The notes under the pieces: generated by a model | What the model saw: the letters and a program-made list of their open reading frames with translations, nothing else | Databases searched by the model: none | Told to the model about the DNA's origin: nothing | Program-made: the position numbers and the translations under genes | Shown here: one piece after another, positions 1-58,750 of the stretch | How positions within the stretch are numbered: the first letter of the stretch is position 1 | How the letters are laid out: the number at the start of each line of letters is the position of its first letter | Assembly (NCBI GenBank): GCA_014874185.1 | Contig: JACWAF010000013.1 | Span: 1 to 64,000, forward strand | Length of the DNA: 64,000 nt | Direction: 5' to 3' | From: Nitrospirota bacterium | Lineage (GTDB): Bacteria; Nitrospirota; Thermodesulfovibrionia; Thermodesulfovibrionales; JdFR-88

Positions 1-169
1 AGAAAATCCCTCCTAACCTACCCTTTGTCAAAGGGCCTTTACCAAAGGGAGGAATTACCCCTCTTTGGAACGGGGTCCCCTAAAAGTCGCAGACTTTTTG
101 GGGTGCGGGTTGAGGGGCGAGGGGAGATTTTCCAGTCAAAATGTCTGTTCAATTATGAGGCCCTTAATA
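1..169 (+). repeat. MITE-like dispersed repeat, copy 1 (left end cut by window edge)
   Basis: This is the right-hand part of a ~205-bp element seen in full at 30351-30556 and 34596-34799, and in reverse at 58577-58750 and 11409-11595. It starts in the AAAATCCCTCC arm, holds the hairpin AAAAGTC-GCA-GACTTTT, and ends in the terminal inverted repeat ATTATGAG..CCTTAATA at about 155-169. It lies about 100 bases beyond the 3' end of hyaC. There is no transposase gene in it. The open frame across the repeat recurs in other copies because the copies are nearly identical, and I do not regard it as coding. Confidence 0.8.
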
Positions 170-180
170 ATATAGAGGAG

Positions 181-273: not shown

Positions 274-975
274 TCAGTCTGTTGTCTTCCTGGGCCTTGG
301 CTCGATATCTTCCTCCCTTATGAATTTGAACCCGCCGAATATGGACCCCAGAAGCCCGTTGGTCTCCACCGTATCCAGATACCAGGCAAGATAGATGTGG
401 GCCAATGCGAAGAACAGGAGCCCGTACATCCCTATGTAATGTATCAGCCTGATTGTTGGTATGGTGAATATCCATAGAAGCCAGCCGCCGAGGAGCATGT
501 GCGTGAAATTGTAATGGTCTACCGTGAAGAGGGCGAAGCCGGTGAAGATTTCAACCACCATTCCGGCGTAGACGAAAAAATACACCAGGTTCGCAAGCTG
601 CGTATGGCCGACGGCGACGGGCGATTCCCTGCCTATGAAGAGGTGGAACTTTATGGCCTTCAGGACGTCATGCCATTGCTCGCGCGTGTGGGGGAGCCAT
701 GTGCGCCAGCTTGCGTACCGGTTCCCCATGAAGGCCCAGATGATCCTGAGCGCCACCATGGCCAGAAGCAGGTACCCGAACGACAGGTGCAGCAGCCGCA
801 TCCAGCCCATCGTATACGCCGGATTGCTCCCTGTATAGATGAAGGTCCTCGCGATGTAAAAACCCGTGAAGACGAGCGCGGCTATTGAGAGCACGTTCAG
901 CCAATGCGCGAGCCTTACCGGGAATTCCCAGACGTAAACTCTCCGCCTGCACGCATATGTGGTTTTTTGCTCCAT
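274..975 (-). CDS. hyaC: Ni/Fe-hydrogenase b-type cytochrome subunit
   Basis: This 233-residue integral membrane diheme cytochrome b takes electrons from the hydrogenase small subunit and passes them to the quinone pool. Hydrophobic segments lie near residues 20-42, 60-85, 125-150 and 165-205. Histidines suited to heme binding sit in the LAHWLN segment at about residue 19, in the second segment (LHLSFGYL) and in the last one (HYIG, LAHIY). Length fits the HyaC/HupC family. It starts 2 bases after the hyaB stop, so it is translated as the third gene of hyaA-hyaB-hyaC. The b-type subunit implies a respiratory, periplasm-facing uptake enzyme. No maturation genes (hyp, hyaD) are visible in the window. 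Confidence 0.9.
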   Translation of the reverse strand: MEQKTTYACRRRVYVWEFPVRLAHWLNVLSIAALVFTGFYIARTFIYTGSNPAYTMGWMRLLHLSFGYLLLAMVALRIIWAFMGNRYASWRTWLPHTREQWHDVLKAIKFHLFIGRESPVAVGHTQLANLVYFFVYAGMVVEIFTGFALFTVDHYNFTHMLLGGWLLWIFTIPTIRLIHYIGMYGLLFFALAHIYLAWYLDTVETNGLLGSIFGGFKFIREEDIEPRPRKTTD

Positions 976-11380: not shown

Positions 11381-11408
11381 ATTTGCTAAAAAATATCTCT
11401 CGTTAAAT

Positions 11409-11595
11409 TATTAAGGATCTCATAATTGAATAGACATTTTGACCGGGAAATCTCCCCTCGCCCCTCTACCGGCACCCCAAAAAGTCTGAGACTTTTCGGG
11501 GACCCCTTCCAAAGAGGGGTAATCCCTCCCTTTGGAAAAGGGAGGCTAGGAGGGATTTGCGTATATTATGTACATCCTACTTCGAGACCGTTAAA
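11409..11595 (-). repeat. MITE-like dispersed repeat, diverged copy
   Basis: A reverse-orientation, older copy of the element at 30351-30556. It begins at ATTATTAAGGATCTCATAATTG and ends near GAGACCGTTAAAT; it lacks about 15-20 bases of the CCCTTTGTCAAAGGG hairpin. A T-T mismatch in the CCCCtAAAAGTC stem of other copies is a G-T wobble here, so the hairpin is kept. It starts 28 bases after the glnB stop. Confidence 0.75.
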
Positions 11596-25282: not shown

Positions 25283-25369
25283 ACAAATCCGTTTTCTTTC
25301 ATCCCTTTCAAGGACGGCAACCTTCTTGAATTTTGGGGGCCGCCCCCTTCCTCCTCGAGAAGTCCATAT

Positions 25370-25515
25370 TGCCTCGCAGAAAGGTCTTCTGGCTCCCGGC
25401 TCGTCCTCGGTCCATCCTTCCCATGCAAGATGCACAGTGGCTAAATTGGACCTCGTCCCCGGTTACAGCGGCGGGACCGCTCCCGGCTTTAACGGGATTC
25501 CCTTACCTGCTTGAG
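25370..25515 (-). ncRNA. cobalamin riboswitch
   Basis: On the minus strand the aptamer core is clear: GGTAAGGGAATCCCGTTAAA, GCGGTCCCGCCGCTGTAA, then the B12-box-like GCCACTGTGC, CATGGGAAGG and GAGCCAGAAGACC. These occur in the order expected for an AdoCbl aptamer. The terminator at 25247-25282 follows, so bound cobalamin should shut off the ten-gene cbiA-to-cbiGH operon. Confidence 0.92.
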
Positions 25516-25596
25516 GTAATTTAATCAAAAAGGAAGGCAAGTTGTCAATCCGCCCTCCAAATTCCGCGGAATCGGTGAGATAATCTGAAAGAGGGG

Positions 25597-25944: not shown

Positions 25945-26012
25945 ACTTCCATATTTCGGGCTAACCTGATAATTTCATGGAATTTTCACAATCGGAGACG
26001 ATAATTTAACAG

Positions 26013-28175
26013 ATGGACATCTTTTGGCTGGAAGAATACGGGGCCTCCAGGAGGCTGGTTGAAGCGCTGAAGTCAACGGGCCTGCAAAAACTCTATCCGC
26101 CGCAGAAGATGTCCGTCGAGGCGGGGCTCCTTTCGACGAAAAACCCCTTCGTGGTTGCGGCGCCTACCGCCTCCGGCAAGACGCTGATAGCGGAGATGGC
26201 CGCCCTGTCCCTGACGCTTGAGAGGGCAGGGAAGGTGGTCTACCTTGTCCCCCTGCGCGCACTCGCCCGGGAGAAATACGAAGACCTGTCGGGGAAATAC
26301 TCGGGTTTCGGCATAAAGGTGATGCAGAGCACGGGGGACTTCGACAGTGGCGATCCCTGGCTGGCCGATGCGGACATCCTTGTCTGCACCAACGAAAAGC
26401 TGGACTCCCTGGTGCGGCACCGCGCGCCCTGGCTGAAGGATGTGCGCCTCGTGATAGCCGACGAGATACACCTCCTTGGGGACGGCCACAGGGGGCCCAC
26501 GCTTGAGGTAGTGCTCACCCGTCTCAGGCTCACCAACCCCGATCTTAGGATAATAGCCCTCAGCGCCACCATCCCCAATGCTGACGAGATCGCCCACTGG
26601 CTTGACGCCACCCTCATCGAATCCACATGGCGGCCCGTCCCCCTGCGGGAGGGGGTGTATTTCAACGGGGCGGGGATATTCAACGACGGCACCGTGCGCT
26701 GGGTGCCATCTTCGGAAACGGGTTCGGCGGCCCTGGATCTGGCCATGGACACCATAGGCGAGGGCGGGCAGGCCCTGATATTCGTGGGCACAAGGAAGGC
26801 CGCCGAGTCACTGCCGGGAAAGGCCGGGAAACTGGTCGCTGGCAGGACCACGGAAGAAGAGAAGGCCGGTCTTTTGAAACTGGCCCAGCAGATAGCCTCC
26901 GCTTCGGCAGAACAGACAAAGACCGGCAAAAAGCTTGCGGAGCTTGTAAAAGACGGGGTCGCCTTCCACCATGCCGGCATACTTGGTTCACAAAGAAGGC
27001 TGGTGGAAGAGGGTTTCAAGGCCAATACGATAAAAATTCTGGTTTCCACCACCACGCTGGCAATGGGGCTGAACCTCCCCTCCCGGAGGGTCATAATCCG
27101 TGACTGGTGGAGATACGAGCCGGGCGTGGGCATACATTCGCTGCCCGCGATAGAAGTGAAACAGATGTCCGGCCGGGCCGGGAGGCCTGGTTATGACGAG
27201 TACGGCGAGGCCCTGCTTATAGCCAGGAACAAACGCGACGAGAGCGAATTGTTCGAGAAATACATTAAGGGCGGCCCGGAAAAGATAACCTCCAGGCTGG
27301 CAAACGACGACGCCATGCGCTTCCATATTCTGGCCTCCATAGCGGGCATGTTCACGCGGACCAGGCCCGAGCTTTTCGAATTCCTGGAGAGTACCTTTTC
27401 GGCCTACCAGGCGGGGGCCGATTTCCTCTACAAGCTTTCCGATGGGGCGCTGGATTTTCTTCAGTCGGAAGAGATGGTGAGGGCTGAAAAAAATCTTCTC
27501 CTCGCCACCCGTTTCGGACGGAGGGTCTCGGAGCTTTACCTGGACCCGCTCTCGGCAGTGGTGATCAGGGATTCGCTGAAGCTGGAACCGCCCAAGCTCC
27601 CCTTCCCGCTCCTGCAGATGATAGCCCGCACGCCGGATATGATGAGACTCTTCCTGAGAAAAAAAGACTGGGAAGAGTTGATGGAGATATACTTCGCCCA
27701 TGCCGAGAGCCTGCTGATGGCGAAAGAGGATAAATTCCCCTCGGAGGAGCTTCTATCTTCGCTCAAAACGGCATCCGTGCTGATGCAGTGGATTCTGGAG
27801 CTTCCGGAAGACCGGATCACCACGCACTTCGGCATCGGGCCCGGCGACCTGAGGACGCTAGTGGAGCTTTCGGACTGGCTCCTCTATTCCTCATACGAGA
27901 TATCGAAGCTCTTCGGACTCAAAGAGGCGCAGAAGGCGATATCACAGCTTAGGCCCAGGATTTACTACGGGGTCAAGGAGGAGCTTCTGGAGCTGGTCAC
28001 CCTGCGCGGCATAGGACGGGTAAGGGCGAGAAGCCTCTACGAAAGCGGCGTGCGCGGCCTTGACGATATAAAAAAAAGGACCGTTGCCGAGCTTTCGGGA
28101 ATACCGAATATAGGGAAGGCAATTGCCGAGGAGATCAAGAGGCAGGCCGGGAGAAACAAGAAAGAGGAATCTTGA
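26013..28175 (+). CDS. Hel308/Ski2-like superfamily 2 DNA helicase
   Basis: A 720-residue helicase of the mainly archaeal Hel308 kind. Motif I is AAPTASGKTLIAEMAAL near residue 50, Ia VYLVPLRALAREKYE, II VIADEIHLLGDGHRGPTLE near 150, III LSATIPNADEIAHWL, IV/V HHAGILGSQRR and VSTTTLAMGLNLPSRRVII, VI QMSGRAGRPGYDEYGEALLI near 385. The C-terminus ends in helix-hairpin-helix pairs (LRGIGRVRARSLYESGV and LSGIPNIGKAIAEEI). Likely unwinds stalled replication forks. It may be an old transfer from archaea; composition looks like its neighbours. Confidence 0.88.
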   Translation: MDIFWLEEYGASRRLVEALKSTGLQKLYPPQKMSVEAGLLSTKNPFVVAAPTASGKTLIAEMAALSLTLERAGKVVYLVPLRALAREKYEDLSGKYSGFGIKVMQSTGDFDSGDPWLADADILVCTNEKLDSLVRHRAPWLKDVRLVIADEIHLLGDGHRGPTLEVVLTRLRLTNPDLRIIALSATIPNADEIAHWLDATLIESTWRPVPLREGVYFNGAGIFNDGTVRWVPSSETGSAALDLAMDTIGEGGQALIFVGTRKAAESLPGKAGKLVAGRTTEEEKAGLLKLAQQIASASAEQTKTGKKLAELVKDGVAFHHAGILGSQRRLVEEGFKANTIKILVSTTTLAMGLNLPSRRVIIRDWWRYEPGVGIHSLPAIEVKQMSGRAGRPGYDEYGEALLIARNKRDESELFEKYIKGGPEKITSRLANDDAMRFHILASIAGMFTRTRPELFEFLESTFSAYQAGADFLYKLSDGALDFLQSEEMVRAEKNLLLATRFGRRVSELYLDPLSAVVIRDSLKLEPPKLPFPLLQMIARTPDMMRLFLRKKDWEELMEIYFAHAESLLMAKEDKFPSEELLSSLKTASVLMQWILELPEDRITTHFGIGPGDLRTLVELSDWLLYSSYEISKLFGLKEAQKAISQLRPRIYYGVKEELLELVTLRGIGRVRARSLYESGVRGLDDIKKRTVAELSGIPNIGKAIAEEIKRQAGRNKKEES

Positions 28176-28227
28176 GCTAATCTGTCACTCCTATATACTT
28201 AAGATATCGCATTCATACCGGAAGAGA

Positions 28228-28833
28228 ATGAATAAGAAAAGAAGAAACAAGCTGATCGTCCTGTTCAGCGTGATCGCCGCAATCATTCTGGCACACTATA
28301 TCGGGGAGATAAGCAGGCGCAAACCTGAATATCCAGGGATAGTGGAGGCCGAGCAGGTAAAGCTCACCCCTGGCCTGAAGGGCACTATAGAGTGGGTTGC
28401 CGTGCGCGAGGGGGACAAGGTGCTCAAAGGGGAGCTGATAGCCACTCTCGCATTGGAGGGTCCAGGCAGCAGCGGCAATGCGGCCGTGGAGATAGTATCG
28501 CCGGTGGACGGGGTTGTGGTTTCGGCCCCTTTCAAAGCCGGCGACGGCCTGAGCCCGGACCAGACTCTCTTCTGTATAAGCAGTCCGGAGAAAAGATGGG
28601 TCCGCCTCGACCTGGACGAGAGTGCGAGAGATAAGGTCAAACCCGGGACAGAACTCACAATAAAGGCCCCGGAGGTGAGCCGCGACTTCAAGGGGGAAGT
28701 CTTCGAGACCCGGGACTGGAAAGAACAGACCTCCGGGGGCGGAGAGACTAAGGGGATCAGGGCAAAGGTGCGCGTGGACGACCCCGAAAGGATACTTCAG
28801 CCAGGAATGACCGTCATGGCCCGGCTCCCCTGA
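28228..28833 (+). CDS. HlyD-like membrane-fusion-type protein
   Basis: About 201 residues from ATG 28228; an upstream extension overlaps the helicase and is unlikely. One N-terminal membrane helix (LIVLFSVIAAIILAHYIG), then a lipoyl/barrel-sandwich half (PGIVEAEQVKLTPGLKGTIE, REGDKVLKGELIATL, VDGVVVSAPFKAGDGLSPD) and a beta-barrel part (LDLDESARDKVKPGTELTI, RILQPGMTVMARLP). It lacks the long coiled-coil hairpin of efflux adaptors, and no transporter genes adjoin it. Confidence 0.7.
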   Translation: MNKKRRNKLIVLFSVIAAIILAHYIGEISRRKPEYPGIVEAEQVKLTPGLKGTIEWVAVREGDKVLKGELIATLALEGPGSSGNAAVEIVSPVDGVVVSAPFKAGDGLSPDQTLFCISSPEKRWVRLDLDESARDKVKPGTELTIKAPEVSRDFKGEVFETRDWKEQTSGGGETKGIRAKVRVDDPERILQPGMTVMARLP

Positions 28834-28923
28834 CCGGCGCCTCTCTTTTCAGGCCTTCCTTTTTTGGTGGTAAACTTAATCAATAAGCAGAAATCCCCTT
28901 ATGTCTGGCGCAGTCCTTAACAA

Positions 28924-30312
28924 ATGCCATATCCAGGGGGCACCTTGGCCGACCCTCTCGAGAAACTGAAACAATTCCTCCTGCAGACTCTCTGGGGCAG
29001 GGACATTTCCAAACTCAACCGCGCCGGGGTCTGGGGAATGAAATTCCTGAGGCTCCTCTATGTCGCCGTAAGGGAATTTGAGAACAACGAGCTGAACCTC
29101 CAGGCCGCAAACCTCGTATACACCACCCTGCTTGGAATGGTGCCCTTTCTGGCCGTTAGCTTCTCGGTGCTGGCTGCCTTCGGCGTGAAAAATCTGGTCG
29201 CGCCCTTTGTCGAACAGCTCCTGTCCCCGCTTGGACCCGAAAGCCCGGTGATAGCCGCGCATATCGTGGCCTTCGTGAAGAGCCTGAAGATAGGGGTGCT
29301 AAGTTCCGTGGGGCTGGTGCTCCTTGTTTATTCAGCCGTGAGCATCATTCAGAAGATAGAGGGCGCGCTGAACTTCATCTGGAGGAGCAGGAAACAGAGG
29401 ACGTTCGCCCAGCGCTTCAGCCAGTACACGAGCGTGATACTGGTGGGCCCGGTGCTGGTCTTTGCCGCCATCGGGCTCACTGCTTCGATTGCAAGCAACG
29501 CGGTCGTCCGGAGGCTCATGTCCATGCCGCACTTTGGCACGGTCTCCGTCATCGGGGGAAAGCTCATGCCCTATGTCCTGATAATCGCCGCCTTCACGTT
29601 CACCTACTCCTTCCTGCCCGCGGCCAGGGTGAAACTGAAGTCCGCCTTCGTGGGCGGCATCTTCGCAGGGGTCATGTGGCAGACCGTGGGATGGGCGTTC
29701 ACGTCCTTCATAGCTTCATCTGCACAGTACTCAGCCGTATATTCGGGGTTCGCCATCCTGATACTCTTCATCATCTGGGTAAACCTCAGCTGGAGGGTAT
29801 TTCTGGTGGGCGGGTCTATATCCTTCTATTACCAGTACCCGCACCTTGCACCCGTGACCCGGGAACTGGCCCTAAGCGGCAGGCTGAACGAAAGGCTGGC
29901 CCTCGTAATCATGTACCTGATAGGCTACAATTATTATTTCCAGAAACCCCTCTGGGACATGGACCGCCTCGTAGAACGGCTCGGGCTTCCACTGGAGCCG
30001 GTGAGCACCGTCCTGGATATCCTTCAAAAACGCGGGCTGGTTATAGAGTCCGTCATCGATTCCACCCCTTCGTTCGTTCCGGCCAGGCCGGTGGACATGA
30101 TAACCGTCCGCGAGGTGCTTGAATCCGCAAGGGCCGCCGAAGAGGACATCTATTCGATAGGCGAAAAAATCTCCGGGTTCCCGAGACTGGAGATGGAGAT
30201 GAAACAGGTCGACGAGGCCGTCTCTAAGGCCCTGGGCGAAAACACCATCAAGGACCTTTTCGTGACAGGCATGGAGACGGCCGGGGTTATTTGGGAGACC
30301 GAGATGCCCTGA
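28924..30312 (+). CDS. YihY/BrkB-family inner-membrane protein
   Basis: A 462-residue protein. The N-terminal ~290 residues are the YihY membrane domain with about six helices: NELNLQAANLVYTTLLGMVP, LLVYSAVSIIQKIEGALNFIW, GPVLVFAAIGLTASIA and the family end LILFIIWVNLSWRVFLVGGS. The C-terminal ~150 residues are soluble and helical and may form a winged helix (RLVERLGLPLEPVSTVLDIL, RGLVIESV). Proteins of this family were once called ribonuclease BN, but that activity is not theirs. Function unknown; perhaps envelope transport. Confidence 0.82.
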   Translation: MPYPGGTLADPLEKLKQFLLQTLWGRDISKLNRAGVWGMKFLRLLYVAVREFENNELNLQAANLVYTTLLGMVPFLAVSFSVLAAFGVKNLVAPFVEQLLSPLGPESPVIAAHIVAFVKSLKIGVLSSVGLVLLVYSAVSIIQKIEGALNFIWRSRKQRTFAQRFSQYTSVILVGPVLVFAAIGLTASIASNAVVRRLMSMPHFGTVSVIGGKLMPYVLIIAAFTFTYSFLPAARVKLKSAFVGGIFAGVMWQTVGWAFTSFIASSAQYSAVYSGFAILILFIIWVNLSWRVFLVGGSISFYYQYPHLAPVTRELALSGRLNERLALVIMYLIGYNYYFQKPLWDMDRLVERLGLPLEPVSTVLDILQKRGLVIESVIDSTPSFVPARPVDMITVREVLESARAAEEDIYSIGEKISGFPRLEMEMKQVDEAVSKALGENTIKDLFVTGMETAGVIWETEMP

Positions 30313-30350
30313 TTGCCGCTGTTATCTTCAGAAAAGTCTTCATTGCTAAC

Positions 30351-30556
30351 TATTAACAGTCTCATGATAGGATGCACTTAATTATTAGAAAATCCCTCCT
30401 AACCTACCCTTTGTCAAAGGGCCTTTGCCAAAGGGAGGAATTACCCCTCTTTGGAACGGGGTCCCCTAAAAGTCGCAGACTTTTTGGGGTGCGGGTTGAG
30501 GGGCGAGGGGAGATTTTCCGGCCAAAATGTCTGTTCAATTATGAGACCCTTAATAA
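30351..30556 (+). repeat. MITE-like dispersed repeat, full copy
   Basis: A full 206-bp element bounded by inverted ends TATTAACAGTCTCATGAT and ATTATGAGACCCTTAATA, with inner arms AAAATCCCTCC and GGGGAGATTTT, and hairpins CCCTTTGTCAAAGGG and AAAAGTC-GCA-GACTTTT. TA at both outer edges would fit a TA target duplication. It lies 38 bases after the yihY stop and contains no transposase gene. Confidence 0.85.
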
Positions 30557-30594
30557 ATGGTATTTTCACCCCGCAGTGATGTCAAAAACCAATG

Positions 30595-30600
30595 TATAAT
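30595..30600 (+). promoter_or_regulatory. possible -10 box for the DUF362 gene
   Basis: A perfect TATAAT ends 6 bases before the ATG at 30607. No clear -35 was seen. If used, transcription would start at or next to the codon, giving a nearly leaderless message and ruling out the upstream ATG at 30592. Confidence 0.3.
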
Positions 30601-30606
30601 TTCAGC

Positions 30607-31719
30607 ATGGCTTTTGTGATCATCCGTTCAGGGCTCGACTACGATTATGCCTCTATAAAGCCGATTGTCCATGAAATCATGGACAAGGCCGGGCTCGCCG
30701 CAATCAAAAAAGAAAGCCGGGTTGTGATAAAACCCAATCTGCTGGCCGCCGCCCCGCCTGAAAAAGCGATGACAACCCACCCGCTGGTAGTCAGGGCCGC
30801 GGCCGAGTACGTTCTTGAAAAAGGCGCGGTCCCTCAGATATCGGACAGCCCTGCCCTGGGCGGCTTCGATAAGATATTGAAAGAAAGCGGCATAAGGGAC
30901 GCCCTGAAAGGGCTGGATGTGAATTTCAAGGAGTTCCGGGAATCCGCTATCGTGGAAACCCTTGAGCCTTTTAGAAGGCTTGAGCTTGCCAGAGACGCCC
31001 TGGAGGCCGATTTCCTCATAAACCTTCCGAAGCTGAAGACCCATCAGCAGATGCTCCTTACTCTGGGCGTGAAAAATCTCTTCGGCTCTGTCGTGGGCTT
31101 CAAAAAGCCCGAGTGGCATTTCCGCACCGGGATAGACCGCGATATATTCGCAAAGCTCCTGGTCCTCATCCATGCCGCCCTCAAGCCCTCCGCAACCATA
31201 ATTGACGGCATCCTCGCGATGGAAGGACAGGGGCCGGGCAGAAGCGGAAGGCCGAAGAAACTGGGCGTGTTGCTGGGCTCAGATAGCGCCGTGTCCCTGG
31301 ACCATGCCGTCTGCCGGATGCTGGGCCTTGCCCCCGAAGACCTCCTCACAAATAAAACAGCCCGCGAGCTTGGCTTTCCGGGGGATTTCGAGCTGGATGG
31401 CGAACTGCCCCAAATAAGGGATTTCAAGCTTCCGCGCATGAGCCCCCTGGTCTTCGGGCCGAAGGCCTTCCACGGCTTTTTACGCAGCCACCTGGTGGAA
31501 AGGCCCGTCCCGGACGAGGACATCTGCAAGCTCTGCGGCGAGTGCTGGAAATACTGCCCGGCGAAGGCCATCACGAAGGGAGAAAAGGCCCCCGTCTTCG
31601 ACTACGAAAAGTGCATACGCTGCTACTGCTGCATAGAGGTCTGCCCCCATGCGGCACTGAGCGCCAAAGAGACCCTGCCCGGAAGGCTCATCAAAAGCGT
31701 CATAAAAAGGAGGAAATGA
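30607..31719 (+). CDS. DUF362 protein with two C-terminal [4Fe-4S] motifs
   Basis: About 370 residues from MAFVIIR (an ATG five codons upstream is also open). The DUF362 core has RVVIKPNLLAAAPPEKAMTT near residue 45, ISDSPALGGF, and LINLPKLKTHQQMLLTLGVK, near 150. The C-terminal ferredoxin part carries CKLCGECWKYCP and CIRCYCCIEVCP near residues 315-355, two four-iron clusters. Family members are redox proteins of unknown reaction, common in anaerobes. A repeat element sits just upstream. Confidence 0.82.
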   Translation: MAFVIIRSGLDYDYASIKPIVHEIMDKAGLAAIKKESRVVIKPNLLAAAPPEKAMTTHPLVVRAAAEYVLEKGAVPQISDSPALGGFDKILKESGIRDALKGLDVNFKEFRESAIVETLEPFRRLELARDALEADFLINLPKLKTHQQMLLTLGVKNLFGSVVGFKKPEWHFRTGIDRDIFAKLLVLIHAALKPSATIIDGILAMEGQGPGRSGRPKKLGVLLGSDSAVSLDHAVCRMLGLAPEDLLTNKTARELGFPGDFELDGELPQIRDFKLPRMSPLVFGPKAFHGFLRSHLVERPVPDEDICKLCGECWKYCPAKAITKGEKAPVFDYEKCIRCYCCIEVCPHAALSAKETLPGRLIKSVIKRRK

Positions 31720-31747
31720 TACTCAGCATTATGCAACCCTCTCAGGC

Positions 31748-31870
31748 GGGTTCAAGTTTGCAACTTTGAACCCGATAGTTGGTTTTCAGATAACGAATAT
31801 TTCGGTTCAGGTTACAAACCTGAACCAGCAAAGGAAAGATTCCGGACGAGCCGGAATGACAATGAAATAA
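31748..31870. repeat. cluster of short palindromic repeats
   Basis: Three hairpins follow each other between genes: GGGTTCAAGTTTGCAACTTT with GAACCC, GGTTCAGGTTACAAACCTGA with ACC, and AGATTCCGG..CCGGAATGA. The last belongs to the ATTCCGG family also seen at 36466 and 58512. No gene is visible. Confidence 0.55.
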
Positions 31871-31901
31871 TCTTTTTTAGGTCCATGGCAGCCGTTATCG
31901 C

Positions 31902-31930
31902 TTGACTTGAGGCCGCGGTTTTTTTATCCT
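31902..31930 (+). promoter_or_regulatory. sigma70-type promoter of mtaP-apt
   Basis: TTGACT (31902-31907), a 17-base spacer, then TATCCT (31925-31930), 33 bases ahead of the mtaP ATG, which has AGAGGAGA as its ribosome site. Confidence 0.6.
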
Positions 31931-31963
31931 CAATTCTGAATCAAATTCCTTTAGAGGAGAACC

Positions 31964-32725
31964 ATGGAGATAAAAGTGGCCATTATAGGGGGCTCCGGGC
32001 TTGATGCCCCCCGGCTTATGAAAGGGGCCAGGGAGAAGGCCGTGAAGACCCCTTACGGAAGCCCTTCGTCCAAATTGACACTCGGGGAGATAGGGGGCGT
32101 CAAGACCGTCATCCTCGCCCGGCACGGGAAGGACCACTCCATCTACCCCACGGGAGTGAATTTCAGGGCCAATATAATGGCACTTAAAAAAGAGGGCTGC
32201 ACGCATATACTGGCAACCACCGCGGTCGGTTCGCTCCGGGAAAATATAAGGCCCGGAGACCTCGTCTTCCCGGACCAGTTCATAGACCATACCAGGCACC
32301 GCGCCCTGACATTCCACGACGAGAAAGTCATCCACACGCCGATGGCAGAGCCCTTCTGCTGCAGGCTCCGGGAACTCCTCTGCCGGTCGGCAAAAGAGTT
32401 GAAGCTCAGACATCATAACAAGGGCGCCGTGATCACCATAGAAGGGCCGCGCTTTTCCACAAAGGCCGAATCCCATATGTTCAGAAGCTGGAGGGCCGAC
32501 GTGATAAACATGTCCACCGTGCCGGAGGTGATACTTGCCCGCGAGGCCGGCATATGCTATCAGAGCATATGCATGTCAACGGACTATGACTGCTGGAAAG
32601 AGGGCGAGGAGCCGGTCACCTGGGACATGATCCTGCAGAGGATGCAATCAAACGCGGACAACGTAAAAAAGCTGATTTTAAAAACCCTTCCAAAAATAGA
32701 TTTCATCGAATGCGAATGCCATTAG
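31964..32725 (+). CDS. mtaP: S-methyl-5'-thioadenosine phosphorylase
   Basis: A 253-residue purine nucleoside phosphorylase splitting methylthioadenosine to adenine and methylthioribose-1-phosphate. It has IIGGSGLDAPRLM near residue 7, the phosphate loop ARHGKDHSIYPTGVNFRANI near 51, TTAVGSLRENIRPGDLVFPD near 84, and TIEGPRFSTKAESHMFRSW, then MSTVPEVILAREAGICY near 178. It is followed 10 bases later by apt, which would recycle the adenine released: the two act in series. Confidence 0.95.
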   Translation: MEIKVAIIGGSGLDAPRLMKGAREKAVKTPYGSPSSKLTLGEIGGVKTVILARHGKDHSIYPTGVNFRANIMALKKEGCTHILATTAVGSLRENIRPGDLVFPDQFIDHTRHRALTFHDEKVIHTPMAEPFCCRLRELLCRSAKELKLRHHNKGAVITIEGPRFSTKAESHMFRSWRADVINMSTVPEVILAREAGICYQSICMSTDYDCWKEGEEPVTWDMILQRMQSNADNVKKLILKTLPKIDFIECECH

Positions 32726-32735
32726 GAGGCGCAGG

Positions 32736-33269
32736 ATGCCGATAAAATCGCGCATAAGGACGATACCGGATTACCCCAAAAAGGGGATAATGTTCAGGGA
32801 CATAACCACCCTTATAAAAGACCCGGTGGGCTTCAGGATAGTCATAGACAACCTGGCCCAGCATTACATAACGGGTGAGGTGGGCTTTGACCTCATCGTG
32901 GGCATAGAGTCCAGGGGCTTCATCCTGGGGGGCGCGCTGGCCTACGTGCTGGGGAAGGGCTTCGTCCCAATCAGGAAAAAAGGCAAGCTCCCGGCCGAGA
33001 AAGAGGTGCAGGAGTACGAGCTTGAGTACGGCACGGACAGCATAGAAATCCACAAGGATGCCATAAAAAAAGACACGCGCGTCCTGCTGGTGGACGACCT
33101 TCTTGCAACCGGCGGCACCGCCCTCGCCTCCGCCTCCCTTATAGAAAAGCTTGGAGGCAAGGTGGCCGAGATGTGCTTCATAGTGGACCTCCCCGATGTG
33201 GGCGGCAGAAAACGCCTGGAGGCCAAAGGCTATAAGATCTTCGCCCTGACCGGGTTCGAGGGGGAATAA
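32736..33269 (+). CDS. apt: adenine phosphoribosyltransferase
   Basis: A 177-residue enzyme converting adenine and PRPP to AMP. It has IPDYPKKGIMFRDITTLIKD near residue 10, IVGIESRGFILGG near 57, RKKGKLPAEKE near 86 and the PRPP loop VLLVDDLLATGGTALAS near 117. Second gene of the mtaP-apt operon, whose product pair salvages the purine of methylthioadenosine. Confidence 0.96.
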   Translation: MPIKSRIRTIPDYPKKGIMFRDITTLIKDPVGFRIVIDNLAQHYITGEVGFDLIVGIESRGFILGGALAYVLGKGFVPIRKKGKLPAEKEVQEYELEYGTDSIEIHKDAIKKDTRVLLVDDLLATGGTALASASLIEKLGGKVAEMCFIVDLPDVGGRKRLEAKGYKIFALTGFEGE

Positions 33270-33276
33270 AAGGCGC

Positions 33277-33437
33277 GTTACTTTTTCTTGTAAGAAAAAG
33301 TAACCAAAAAGAACTTTTAGTTTTTTGCGGGGCTGTGCCCCGCAAAAAAAATCAAGAGTTTTTTCTCTTTGCCCCAAGCGGATGAAATCCGCCGTATTTG
33401 ATAATTTTTCTTCTTTTTTGCAAAAAAGGGAAAGTAG
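33277..33437. repeat. hairpin-ended dispersed repeat, copy A
   Basis: A 161-bp intergenic unit: left palindrome GTTACTTTTTCTTGTAAG-AAAAAGTAAC, a constant CCAAAAAGAACTTTTAG, a GC hairpin GCGGGGCTGTGCCCCGC, then AGAGTTTTTTCT, and the right palindrome around CTTTTTTGCAAAAAAG ending AAAGTAG. Copies at 44319-44464 and 52396-52523. It fills the gap between the convergent apt and DUF2267 genes and may end both transcripts. Confidence 0.75.
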
Positions 33438-33441
33438 TCTT

Positions 33442-33831
33442 TTACGCCTTTACCGTCTTGCTCCCCTCGAATAGCTTGGAGAACTCCGGCGGGAGCTGTG
33501 CGCGTATGTCGTCTATCTCCCCTTTGGAGACGGCCTCGCCCACCACTTCCATTACCACGCGGGCGTGGTAGACCGCCTCGGGGTAATCCACCCCCTCGCG
33601 CTCGGTCACGCGCTTGAAAAACTCGTTCAGACCGAATTTCTCCTTTTCTTCCACCTGCCTCATATACCAGGCTATCTCAGTGGGCAGCTGGCTTGCCAGA
33701 TCCTCCACCTCCTGGCCGAAGAGCCTCTCGGTCAGGGTCATGAGGGTGGCCCTGATGGCGGCAACGGCTTCGCCCTTTGAAGCCAAACGGGCGCGGTTTT
33801 GCACCTGGCCTACAAATTCGTCGTAATTCAT
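33442..33831 (-). CDS. DUF2267 domain protein
   Basis: A 129-residue all-helical protein: MNYDEFVGQVQNRARL, then AIRATLMTLTERLFGQEVED near residue 26, ASQLPTEIAWYMRQ, and a second helical copy VYHARVVMEVVGEAVSKGEI near 87 with AQLPPEFSKLFEG. This is the DUF2267 pattern of two related halves. The function is unknown; members are often stress-induced cytosolic proteins. Nothing in the immediate neighbourhood gives a role. Confidence 0.82.
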   Translation of the reverse strand: MNYDEFVGQVQNRARLASKGEAVAAIRATLMTLTERLFGQEVEDLASQLPTEIAWYMRQVEEKEKFGLNEFFKRVTEREGVDYPEAVYHARVVMEVVGEAVSKGEIDDIRAQLPPEFSKLFEGSKTVKA

Positions 33832-34025
33832 ATGGTTCCCCCTTTCAGGATGAAGGCTTTCTCATTTAATTTTCAGGCCGCAAGTAAGTAGAGTCAAGGA
33901 GATTTGAGAGGGGCAATTTGGCCGGATGCGCTTGAAAAGGGTGCAATAGGGTGATACAGATTCTAATAAGGCTTCGCCTGAATCCGTATATAATGTCAAA
34001 TGCAGTTTAAACCAGGATGGGTGGA

Positions 34026-34601
34026 ATGTTTTCTGAAATGAGCCTTGAATCGTTCGTGGCCTCATATGGATATGCGGCCCTGCTGGTTGGGACCTTTGTC
34101 GAGGGTGAAACCATTTTAATTATAGGCGGCATATTCGCCCAGCTCGGATACCTGGACCTCTACGCCGTCATGATGATAGCCTTTGCGGGCAGCTTTTCTG
34201 GAGACCAGGTCTCATTCGCCATAGGGCGCCTCAAAGGCAGGGACCTGCTGGCCAGGCATCCCAGCTGGGAAGACCGGGTGGACAGGGTTCACATACTCCT
34301 AGAACGCTACCATGACCTCATCATGGTCGGGTTCAGGTTCGTTTACGGCATGCGGATCATAACGCCTTTTGTGATAGGGATGGGCAGGCACATCAGGGCC
34401 AGACGGTTCATAGTGCTCAATGCGATAGGCGCACTGCTCTGGTCGGTGGCGATCTCCATGGGCGGCTACCTCTTCGGGCATGCGATTGAAAAGGTGACGG
34501 GCGGCATCAAGCATTACGAGATCGCGGTCACGCTGGCGGTGTCGGCAGTGGGGGCCTTCCTGTGGCTAATCCACAAATTAAGAGGAAAAAGGAAATATTA
34601 A
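34026..34601 (+). CDS. DedA-family membrane protein
   Basis: About 191 residues from ATG 34026 (ATG 34017 also open). The DedA/SNARE-associated domain has ASYGYAALLVGTFVEGETIL, GSFSGDQVSFAIGRLKGRDL, the FRFVYGMRIITPFVIGMGR signature near residue 105 and RFIVLNAIGALLWSVAISMG. DedA proteins move lipid carriers such as undecaprenyl phosphate across the membrane; the precise substrate is not readable here. The stop codon TAA (34599-34601) lies inside the terminal repeat of the adjoining MITE-like element. Confidence 0.87.
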   Translation: MFSEMSLESFVASYGYAALLVGTFVEGETILIIGGIFAQLGYLDLYAVMMIAFAGSFSGDQVSFAIGRLKGRDLLARHPSWEDRVDRVHILLERYHDLIMVGFRFVYGMRIITPFVIGMGRHIRARRFIVLNAIGALLWSVAISMGGYLFGHAIEKVTGGIKHYEIAVTLAVSAVGAFLWLIHKLRGKRKY

Positions 34602-34799
34602 CAGTCTCATAATAGGATGCACTTAATTATTAGAAAATCCCTCCTAACCTACCCTTTGTCAAAGGGCCTTTACCAAAGGGAGGAATTACCCCTCTTTGGA
34701 ACGGGGTCCCCTAAAAGTCGCAGACTTTTTGGGGTGCGGGTTGAGGGGCGAGGGGAGATTTTCCGGTCAAAAGGTCTGTTCAATTATGAGACCTTAATA
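34596..34799 (+). repeat. MITE-like dispersed repeat, full copy at the dedA stop
   Basis: A 204-bp copy nearly identical to 30351-30556, from TATTAACAGTCTCATAAT to ATTATGAGACCTTAATA. Its first bases supply or overlap the dedA stop codon, so insertion here set the present C-terminus of DedA. The other end lies 40 bases from the 3' end of the convergent deoA. Confidence 0.85.
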
Positions 34800-34839
34800 G
34801 CAGGCGAAAGGCGATGCCCCTGCCCTTTTCAGCTTGCCC

Positions 34840-36186
34840 TCAGGGCAGGACCGCTTCGAAGACGATACGGGGCCTGGCCGGTTCGCGGTCCCCTATCTCC
34901 ACGCCGGAGAGAAAGACGTGCTCGGCCTCGGTGAGGGTTCCAGGACGGTTCGTGTGCAGGACTGCCAGCGGCTCCCCGGCCTTCACCGGGTCACCGGGTT
35001 TTTTCCCCAGCACGATGCCTGCGGCAAGGTCTATGCCGTCCTCCATCCTGCTCCTGCCCGCCCCCAGGAGCATCGAGGCGTGCCCCACACTGCGGGCGTC
35101 CAGCTTCCTGACGTACCCGGTCCATGGGGAAAGCACCGGCTTGAGGTTGACGGCCTTCGGGAAGAGCGAGGGATTGAAGGCGGATTCGGGGTTGCCGTGC
35201 TGGGCATCTATCATCTCCAGCAGCTTGGCGAAGGCGTCGCCGTGGTCCATGTAATCGCGCACCTCGTCCTTGTATTTTTTTATGATATGCTCGCCCAGCC
35301 TCTGGGGCTCGGTCTCCTCGCTGACCGAATCCGACAGGTGCGCCATCCACGCGGCCAGAGTAAGGGTCAGCTCAAACAGGTCCGGGGCGCACGCGCCTTT
35401 CAGGGCGGAGATGCACTCTTTAATCTCCAGGCTGTTGCCCACCGCCCTGCCCAGCGGCGCGCTCATGTCCGTTATGAGGGCTATCGTCTTCACTCCCATG
35501 GAGTTTCCGATGTTCACCATAAGCCGGGCCAGTGCGCGCGCGTCGTGGATGTCCTCCATGAAGGCGCCGGAGCCGGTCTTCACGTCCAGGAGCAGGGCGT
35601 CTATCCCCTCGGAGAGCTTTTTGGACATCACGCTTGCCGCGATAAGAGGAATGGATTCGACAGTGGAGGTGCAGTCCCTGAGCGCATAAAGCCTCCTGTC
35701 GGAAGGGGCTATCTCTTCGGACTGCCCCATTATGGCGCAGCCCACAGTGGCTATGCACTCCCTGAACTCCTCTATGCTCAGGTCCGTGCGGAATCCGGGT
35801 ATGGAGGCCAGCTTGTCCAGCGTGCCCCCCGTATGCCCAAGCCCCCGCCCCACTATCATGGGCATCTTCATCCCCATGGCCGCCATGAGCGGGGCCAGTA
35901 TTATGCTGGTCTTGTCCCCAACGCCGCCGGTGGAATGCTTGTCAACCTTCACGCCGGATATGCCCGAGAGGTCCACCTTGCGCCCGGTATCCAGCATGGC
36001 CGAGGCAAGCGCAATCGTCTCCGGCTCGGTCATCCCCTTGTGATAAACGGCCATAAGGAAGGCGGCCATCTGGTAATCGGGTATAGCGCCCGCCAGATGC
36101 CCGCTTATGAGGAACGATATCTCTTCCTTATGCAGTTCCCCGCCGTCACGCTTTTTCTTTATGAGGTCGACCGCGCGCATGGACAT
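34840..36186 (-). CDS. deoA: thymidine/pyrimidine-nucleoside phosphorylase
   Basis: A 448-residue enzyme splitting thymidine or uridine with phosphate. It starts MRAVDLIKKKRDGGELHKEE, has the family signature KVDKHSTGGVGDKTSIILAP near residue 80, GRGLGHTGGTLDKL near 113, LLLDVKTGSGAFM near 197 and a C-terminal alpha/beta domain (SVGHASMLLGAG, LTEAEHVFLSG). Starts at MSM or two codons later are both possible. Not in an operon; with mtaP and apt it forms a loose salvage neighbourhood. Confidence 0.93.
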   Translation of the reverse strand: MSMRAVDLIKKKRDGGELHKEEISFLISGHLAGAIPDYQMAAFLMAVYHKGMTEPETIALASAMLDTGRKVDLSGISGVKVDKHSTGGVGDKTSIILAPLMAAMGMKMPMIVGRGLGHTGGTLDKLASIPGFRTDLSIEEFRECIATVGCAIMGQSEEIAPSDRRLYALRDCTSTVESIPLIAASVMSKKLSEGIDALLLDVKTGSGAFMEDIHDARALARLMVNIGNSMGVKTIALITDMSAPLGRAVGNSLEIKECISALKGACAPDLFELTLTLAAWMAHLSDSVSEETEPQRLGEHIIKKYKDEVRDYMDHGDAFAKLLEMIDAQHGNPESAFNPSLFPKAVNLKPVLSPWTGYVRKLDARSVGHASMLLGAGRSRMEDGIDLAAGIVLGKKPGDPVKAGEPLAVLHTNRPGTLTEAEHVFLSGVEIGDREPARPRIVFEAVLP

Positions 36187-58556: not shown

Positions 58557-58576
58557 ACGATGACTTACGGATCTCT

Positions 58577-58750
58577 TATTAAGGGCCTCATAATTGGACA
58601 GACATTTTGACTGGAAAATCTCCCCTCGCCCCTCAACCTGCACCCCAAAAAGTCTGCGACTTTTAGGGGACCCCGTTCCAAAGAGGGGTAATTCCTCCTT
58701 TTGGCAAAGGCCCTTTGACAAAGGGAAGGTAGGAGGGATTTTCCAATAAT
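58577..58750 (-). repeat. MITE-like dispersed repeat, copy truncated at the acyP stop
   Basis: The reverse copy runs from TATTAAGGGCCTCATAATTG to GGGATTTTCCAATAA, where it stops two bases short of the acylphosphatase stop codon (58752-58754); the outer ~35 bases of the second terminal repeat are missing. Confidence 0.8.

Follow-up and report, generated by a model that had tools for sequence, protein, structure and literature searches.

The repeat of about 205 bp that occurs five times in the window (the whole stretch of DNA analysed, 64,000 nucleotides, which is bases 1-64000 of contig C4) is very probably a non-autonomous MITE derived from the IS630 family of insertion sequences (Tc1/mariner type, targeting TA). 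Its placement would result from insertion at TA followed by purifying selection, and its long form from the capture of a palindrome. The regulatory reading first given to these copies gives way to one as transposons, whose parent family can be named. The MITE belongs to an ordinary class of elements, and none of the results shows that the cell uses it to end transcripts.

The family extends well beyond the window. The genome (2.43 Mb in 42 contigs) contains 46 matches to the element in a sequence search, and a pattern search of the genome for the end TTAANNGTCTCATAAT with up to two mismatches returned 78 matches against 6 for the reversed control. When the stretches around all matches were searched again, the family was located at about 58 places, 21 with the long form and 37 with the short form. 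More copies probably exist than were counted, since several contigs start or stop at the MITE. The contigs that begin or end in or beside a copy are found at C4:1, C13:88, C17:33522 and C28:112501. The usable full copies (n=25) span about 127-216 bp, without a transposase inside, and their ends of about 18 bp read TATTAA(CA/GG)GTCTCATAAT and are flanked by TA. In the alignment of ends, the left ones read TATTAACAGTCTCATAATAGGATGCAC and the right ones, as reverse complement, TATTAAGGGTCTCATAATTGAACAGACAT. The family therefore has the features of a MITE, namely a short length (roughly 50-600 bp in such elements) with no transposase ORF, terminal inverted repeats and dispersed copies that are absent from the relatives' sites. 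In the end logos, the outermost two positions are TA in most copies, a T is preferred before them and the information drops beyond -3, which points to TA as the putative target duplication; the relatives belong to other genera and offer no base-exact empty site. The flanks joined at TA often yield TTAA. Nested insertions were considered as a source of exact empty sites, and the apparent nests proved to be tandem duplications or internal insertions. At L075 2745-3014 two short-form cores lie in tandem with repeated TAGTTATTAGAAAATCCCT junctions, an arrangement that suggests local duplication and not nested transposition. Among named genomes, those that match the right end exactly are mostly Nitrospirae/Nitrospiria, with a few Deltaproteobacteria, and the host is therefore likely to be a member of the Nitrospirota.

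The parent element was recognized among 176 genomes of the order, where a single pair of exact ends was found at a spacing of 1,114 bp, in G155. The single long intact ORF between these ends matches Pfam DDE_3 (2.9e-36) and NCBIfam transpos_IS630 (8.7e-69), over the cut-off. A transposase 76% identical to this one is encoded in G014 between the closely similar ends TATTAATGGTCTCAAAATAG and TATTAACCGTCTCATAGTAA, and distant IS630 members (about 54% identical) start with TATTAAT(A/C)AGT(G/T)CATA. The MITE and the autonomous IS630-encoding element of G155 thus have in common the ends TATTAAnnGTCTCATAAT by TA, whereas the MITE lacks the DDE_3 transposase and contains an unrelated palindromic interior, with nothing common beyond the ends of about 25-30 bp. 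The sequence-only reading had described the element as MITE-like and devoid of transposase; this is borne out, and is now extended by an IS630-type parent. The window's genome has no intact helper or autonomous copy and no IS630 match over the cut-off. It keeps only a transposase scrap of about 32 aa (75% identity), and for this reason the MITE copies look orphaned.

The comparison of ends suggests that the MITE was mobilised in trans, by an IS630-type transposase that would have recognised TATTAA(NN)GTCTCATAAT. The copies would have inserted at TA, usually within TTAA or (T)TA(A), and purifying selection, as the putative cause, would then have removed the insertions in divergent promoter gaps. 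The long form, after gaining a palindrome of about 41 bp, would have multiplied, all window copies being of this form. The intact helper would since have been lost from the assembled genome, and the copies would now mostly decay.

A search of the window and of the genome placed the five copies within a base or two of their first assignment, and their near-palindromic interiors, the absence of a transposase and, by Pfam, the named neighbour genes were confirmed (Table 1). The ends TATTAAnnGTCTCATAAT are common to the copies as had been claimed, except that the copy at 58576 retains one terminal repeat only. The copy at 1-170 was rightly described as cut, and its incompleteness is due to the contig end: the window begins at base 1 of C4, which means that the assembly was interrupted inside the repeat.

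Table 1. Coordinates of the MITE copies of the window, of the parts of the 30351 copy and of related features in other genomes of the order.
Feature	Position	Strand	Remarks
MITE copy	1-170	+	long subtype; left ~40 bp missing at contig start
MITE copy	11408-11594	-	long subtype, diverged, 81% to 30351 copy
MITE copy	30351-30556	+	long subtype, full length
Left terminal repeat of 30351 copy	30351-30368	+	TATTAACAGTCTCATGAT; matches left end of IS630-type element
Inserted palindromic module	30455-30496	+	mark of long subtype; occurs alone in other families of the order
Right terminal repeat of 30351 copy	30538-30556	-	minus-strand reading (T)TATTAAGGGTCTCATAAT
MITE copy	34596-34799	+	long subtype, full length
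MITE copy	58576-58750	-	long subtype, truncated, one terminal repeat lost
Other interior in IS630-type ends	L192 19-211 and 2478-2670		G007:C3
Other interior in IS630-type ends	L183 993-1141		G117
Other interior in IS630-type ends	L172 4236-4446		
Stand-alone palindrome	L240 1501-1530		G022:C1:468670
Stand-alone palindrome	L238 1501-1530		G033:C32:64824
Stand-alone palindrome	L231 308-337		G022:C1:143503

The surroundings of the window copies are diverse. The first copy follows the stop codon of a hydrogenase cytochrome b gene (274-975, minus strand) at a distance of 103 bp, and the second lies between the convergent genes for glnB (P-II) and glutamine synthetase. The third is located between co-oriented genes, with the BrkB/YihY stop 32 bp before it and the DUF362/ferredoxin start 31 bp after it (distances measured from 30345-30560). 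The fourth supplies, from its TATTAA end, the TAA stop of a DedA/VTT-family gene (34038-34601), and its other neighbour (34840-36186, minus strand) is convergent. The DedA homologues of relatives, compared for a protein truncation caused by the element, are only 24-37% identical and too divergent to inform. The fifth copy sits within a conserved gene pair, acyP followed by a radical SAM/BATS (bioB-like) gene. This pair is found in 10 of 11 family relatives, where the two genes are -41 to 201 bp apart and no element intervenes, and no element adjoins the glnB orthologues found in relatives. Since these flanks lack it, the element does not belong to the conserved 3' features of acyP or glnB. Two of the window copies matter for annotation, as one contributes the stop codon of a gene and the other interrupts a conserved pair of genes. 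An Rfam scan of the window gave no match on the MITE; the only match was a cobalamin riboswitch at 25365-25541 on the minus strand (RF00174, 83.4 bits).

The genome-wide location of the copies was determined with genes called by a simple hexamer-based caller trained on the fetched loci. The 50 classifiable copies divide into 31 in tandem (co-oriented) gaps, 14 in convergent ones and 5 in divergent ones. The expectations from the element-free gap length of the same fetched stretches, a local rather than a whole-genome control, are 27.5, 8.0 and 14.5, respectively, and the divergent gaps are depleted (p=0.0017). From the TTAA sites of the gaps the expectations become 26.8, 6.7 and 16.5, with a divergent depletion of p=0.0002 and a convergent excess of p=0.006. 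The claim that the element is always just 3' of a gene therefore fails: a sample as small as the five window copies can hint at a role at gene 3' ends that the copies of the whole genome do not confirm, and within the window itself the 30351 copy is about equally near a start and a stop. The distance to stop codons, proposed earlier as a check, gave little in its favour in the tandem gaps, where the closer of the two codons is the stop for 16 copies and the start for 15 (p=0.24), although a weak excess exists within 40 bp of the stop (19 against 15.1, p=0.05). This proximity may partly follow from the density of TTAA, which is about five times higher in gaps (8.9/kb) than in genes (1.8/kb), and from the ability of the element's TATTAA to supply a TAA stop. 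Orientation in the tandem gaps is unbiased (17 same, 14 opposite). The MITE sits mostly in intergenic gaps where harm is small, and the divergent depletion fits the removal of promoter-disrupting insertions, with selection as the probable cause.

The excess of convergent copies, 14 against 6.7-8.0 expected, also bears on another explanation, namely that the family spread selfishly and some copies, especially those in convergent gaps, were subsequently co-opted as bidirectional transcription barriers. The stable folds agree with it, and Croucher et al. made the same suggestion for the pneumococcal repeat SPRITE (PMC3049150). Nevertheless, a convergent excess would also arise if selection is relaxed 3' of genes, the sites of relatives show no family-level conservation and the U-tracts are weak, and such co-option is considered unlikely, with some chance of being true.

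A family-wide retention of the copies as hairpin terminators or mRNA 3' stabilisers for the preceding genes is far less probable. The avoidance of divergent gaps and the enrichment of convergent ones would suit it, and the copies fold better than shuffled sequences on both strands (z -3.9 and -4.5), but any MITE with inverted arms folds well and the z-scores are not evidence of selection. In an alignment of 24 copies, none of the 30 consensus pairs has changed on both sides (covariation term +0.5), so that compensatory changes, the sign of a structured RNA, are absent at the paired positions. On each strand, only 1 of the 25 copies has a hairpin with at least 6 U in 8, which is fewer than in the shuffles (about 3). 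The lax rule of 5 U in 8 gives 13 of 25 copies on the minus strand against 5.9 in shuffles, and the terminator signal is confined to this rule and to this strand. A G+C-rich hairpin directly followed by a U-tract, as in an intrinsic terminator, is not typical of the family, and a consensus terminator scan of 26000-36000 detected none inside the 30351 and 34596 copies. The tandem gaps, with neither an orientation bias nor a preference for stops, the copies upstream of genes, the copy that splits the acyP pair and the relatives that lack the element likewise argue against this role. The sequence-only reading had also interpreted a T-T to G-T difference in the diverged copy as a compensating change. 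The difference is real, but its direction is the reverse: the usual pair at this module position is G-T, or A-T or G-C in other genomes, and T-T exists only in a young subset, so pairing was lost in the young copies and not regained in the diverged one. The terminator or 3' shield role consequently finds no family-wide support; single copies may differ. Finally, an assignment to REP/RAYT-type repetitive extragenic palindromes, which are likewise palindromic, numerous and intergenic and of a size similar to the inner module alone, is most improbable in view of the long, defined terminal inverted repeats that adjoin TA and are common to the IS630-type element.

As an IS630-derived MITE, the element has its closest analogue in RUP of pneumococcus, which has ends that resemble those of IS630-Spn1 (its proposed mobiliser), inserts at TA and is present in about 100 mostly intergenic copies (PMC3049150, PMC2229807). 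RUP is over-represented between convergent genes, which Croucher et al. attribute to tolerance of insertions downstream of genes, and the same authors apply the promoter-damage reading to RUP, BOX and IS elements in pneumococcus (PMC3049150). Both elements are short, with IS630-like ends, a mostly intergenic location and a convergent-gap excess, and the present MITE probably inserts at TA as well. RUP differs in its 107 bp, its 9-bp ends, its Firmicute host and its common proposed helper IS, whereas the present MITE measures about 165 or 205 bp, has ends of about 18 bp, carries a captured palindrome, has no helper left in the genome and probably belongs to a Nitrospirota host. SPRITE of Streptococcus pneumoniae is a hairpin repeat also enriched between convergent genes, but a long U-rich tract, lacking in the present MITE, follows its stem (PMC3049150). 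Chunjie of Geobacter uraniireducens is described as a MITE of 178-235 bp with tens of full and many partial copies, one of them in an operon (PMC10969869). By description only, Chunjie and the present MITE are alike in size, copy number and operon insertion (PMC10969869).

The long form carries a GGTCCCC(T/G)AAAAGTCGCAGACTTTTTGGGG module. In the window's genome all 21 matches to the module are inside MITE copies, and in seven genomes from other families of the order the module occurs without the MITE. The long copies form one clade nested among the short ones (support 0.887). The simplest history would be a single capture of the palindrome of about 41 bp by the short MITE (about 165 bp), which later spread as the long form. 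The nested palindrome represents an ordered layer, one capture followed by amplification, which can help to trace the turnover of elements in a poorly studied group. In some genomes of the order, the stand-alone palindrome GGTCCCCnnAAAGTCnnnGACTTTnnGGGG is located inside open frames of considerable length, such as 621 and 525 codons, reminiscent of the Rickettsia palindromic elements inserted in frame. Its arms vary among genomes, with A-T, G-C and G-T pairs.

The same class of IS630-type ends holds different palindromic interiors in G007, G117, G054 and L172, including GGAATCC-type and CCCCTCCC-type repeats. In G030 (L221, L222, L223), a close version of the MITE's CCCTCC core lies between a second type of ends, TACTAA(A/G)GAGTTCATAAGTA or TACTAA(A/G)GAGTTCATAAGTATG, similar to those of the distant IS630 subgroup. 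These varied interiors within the same ends, the CCCTCC core within the second ends and the captured stand-alone palindrome raise the tentative idea, held at low confidence, that IS630-type ends serve in this order as a general carrier, by which unrelated host palindromes are taken up time after time and spread. Palindromic interiors may be favoured as an aid to the transposition of short DNA.
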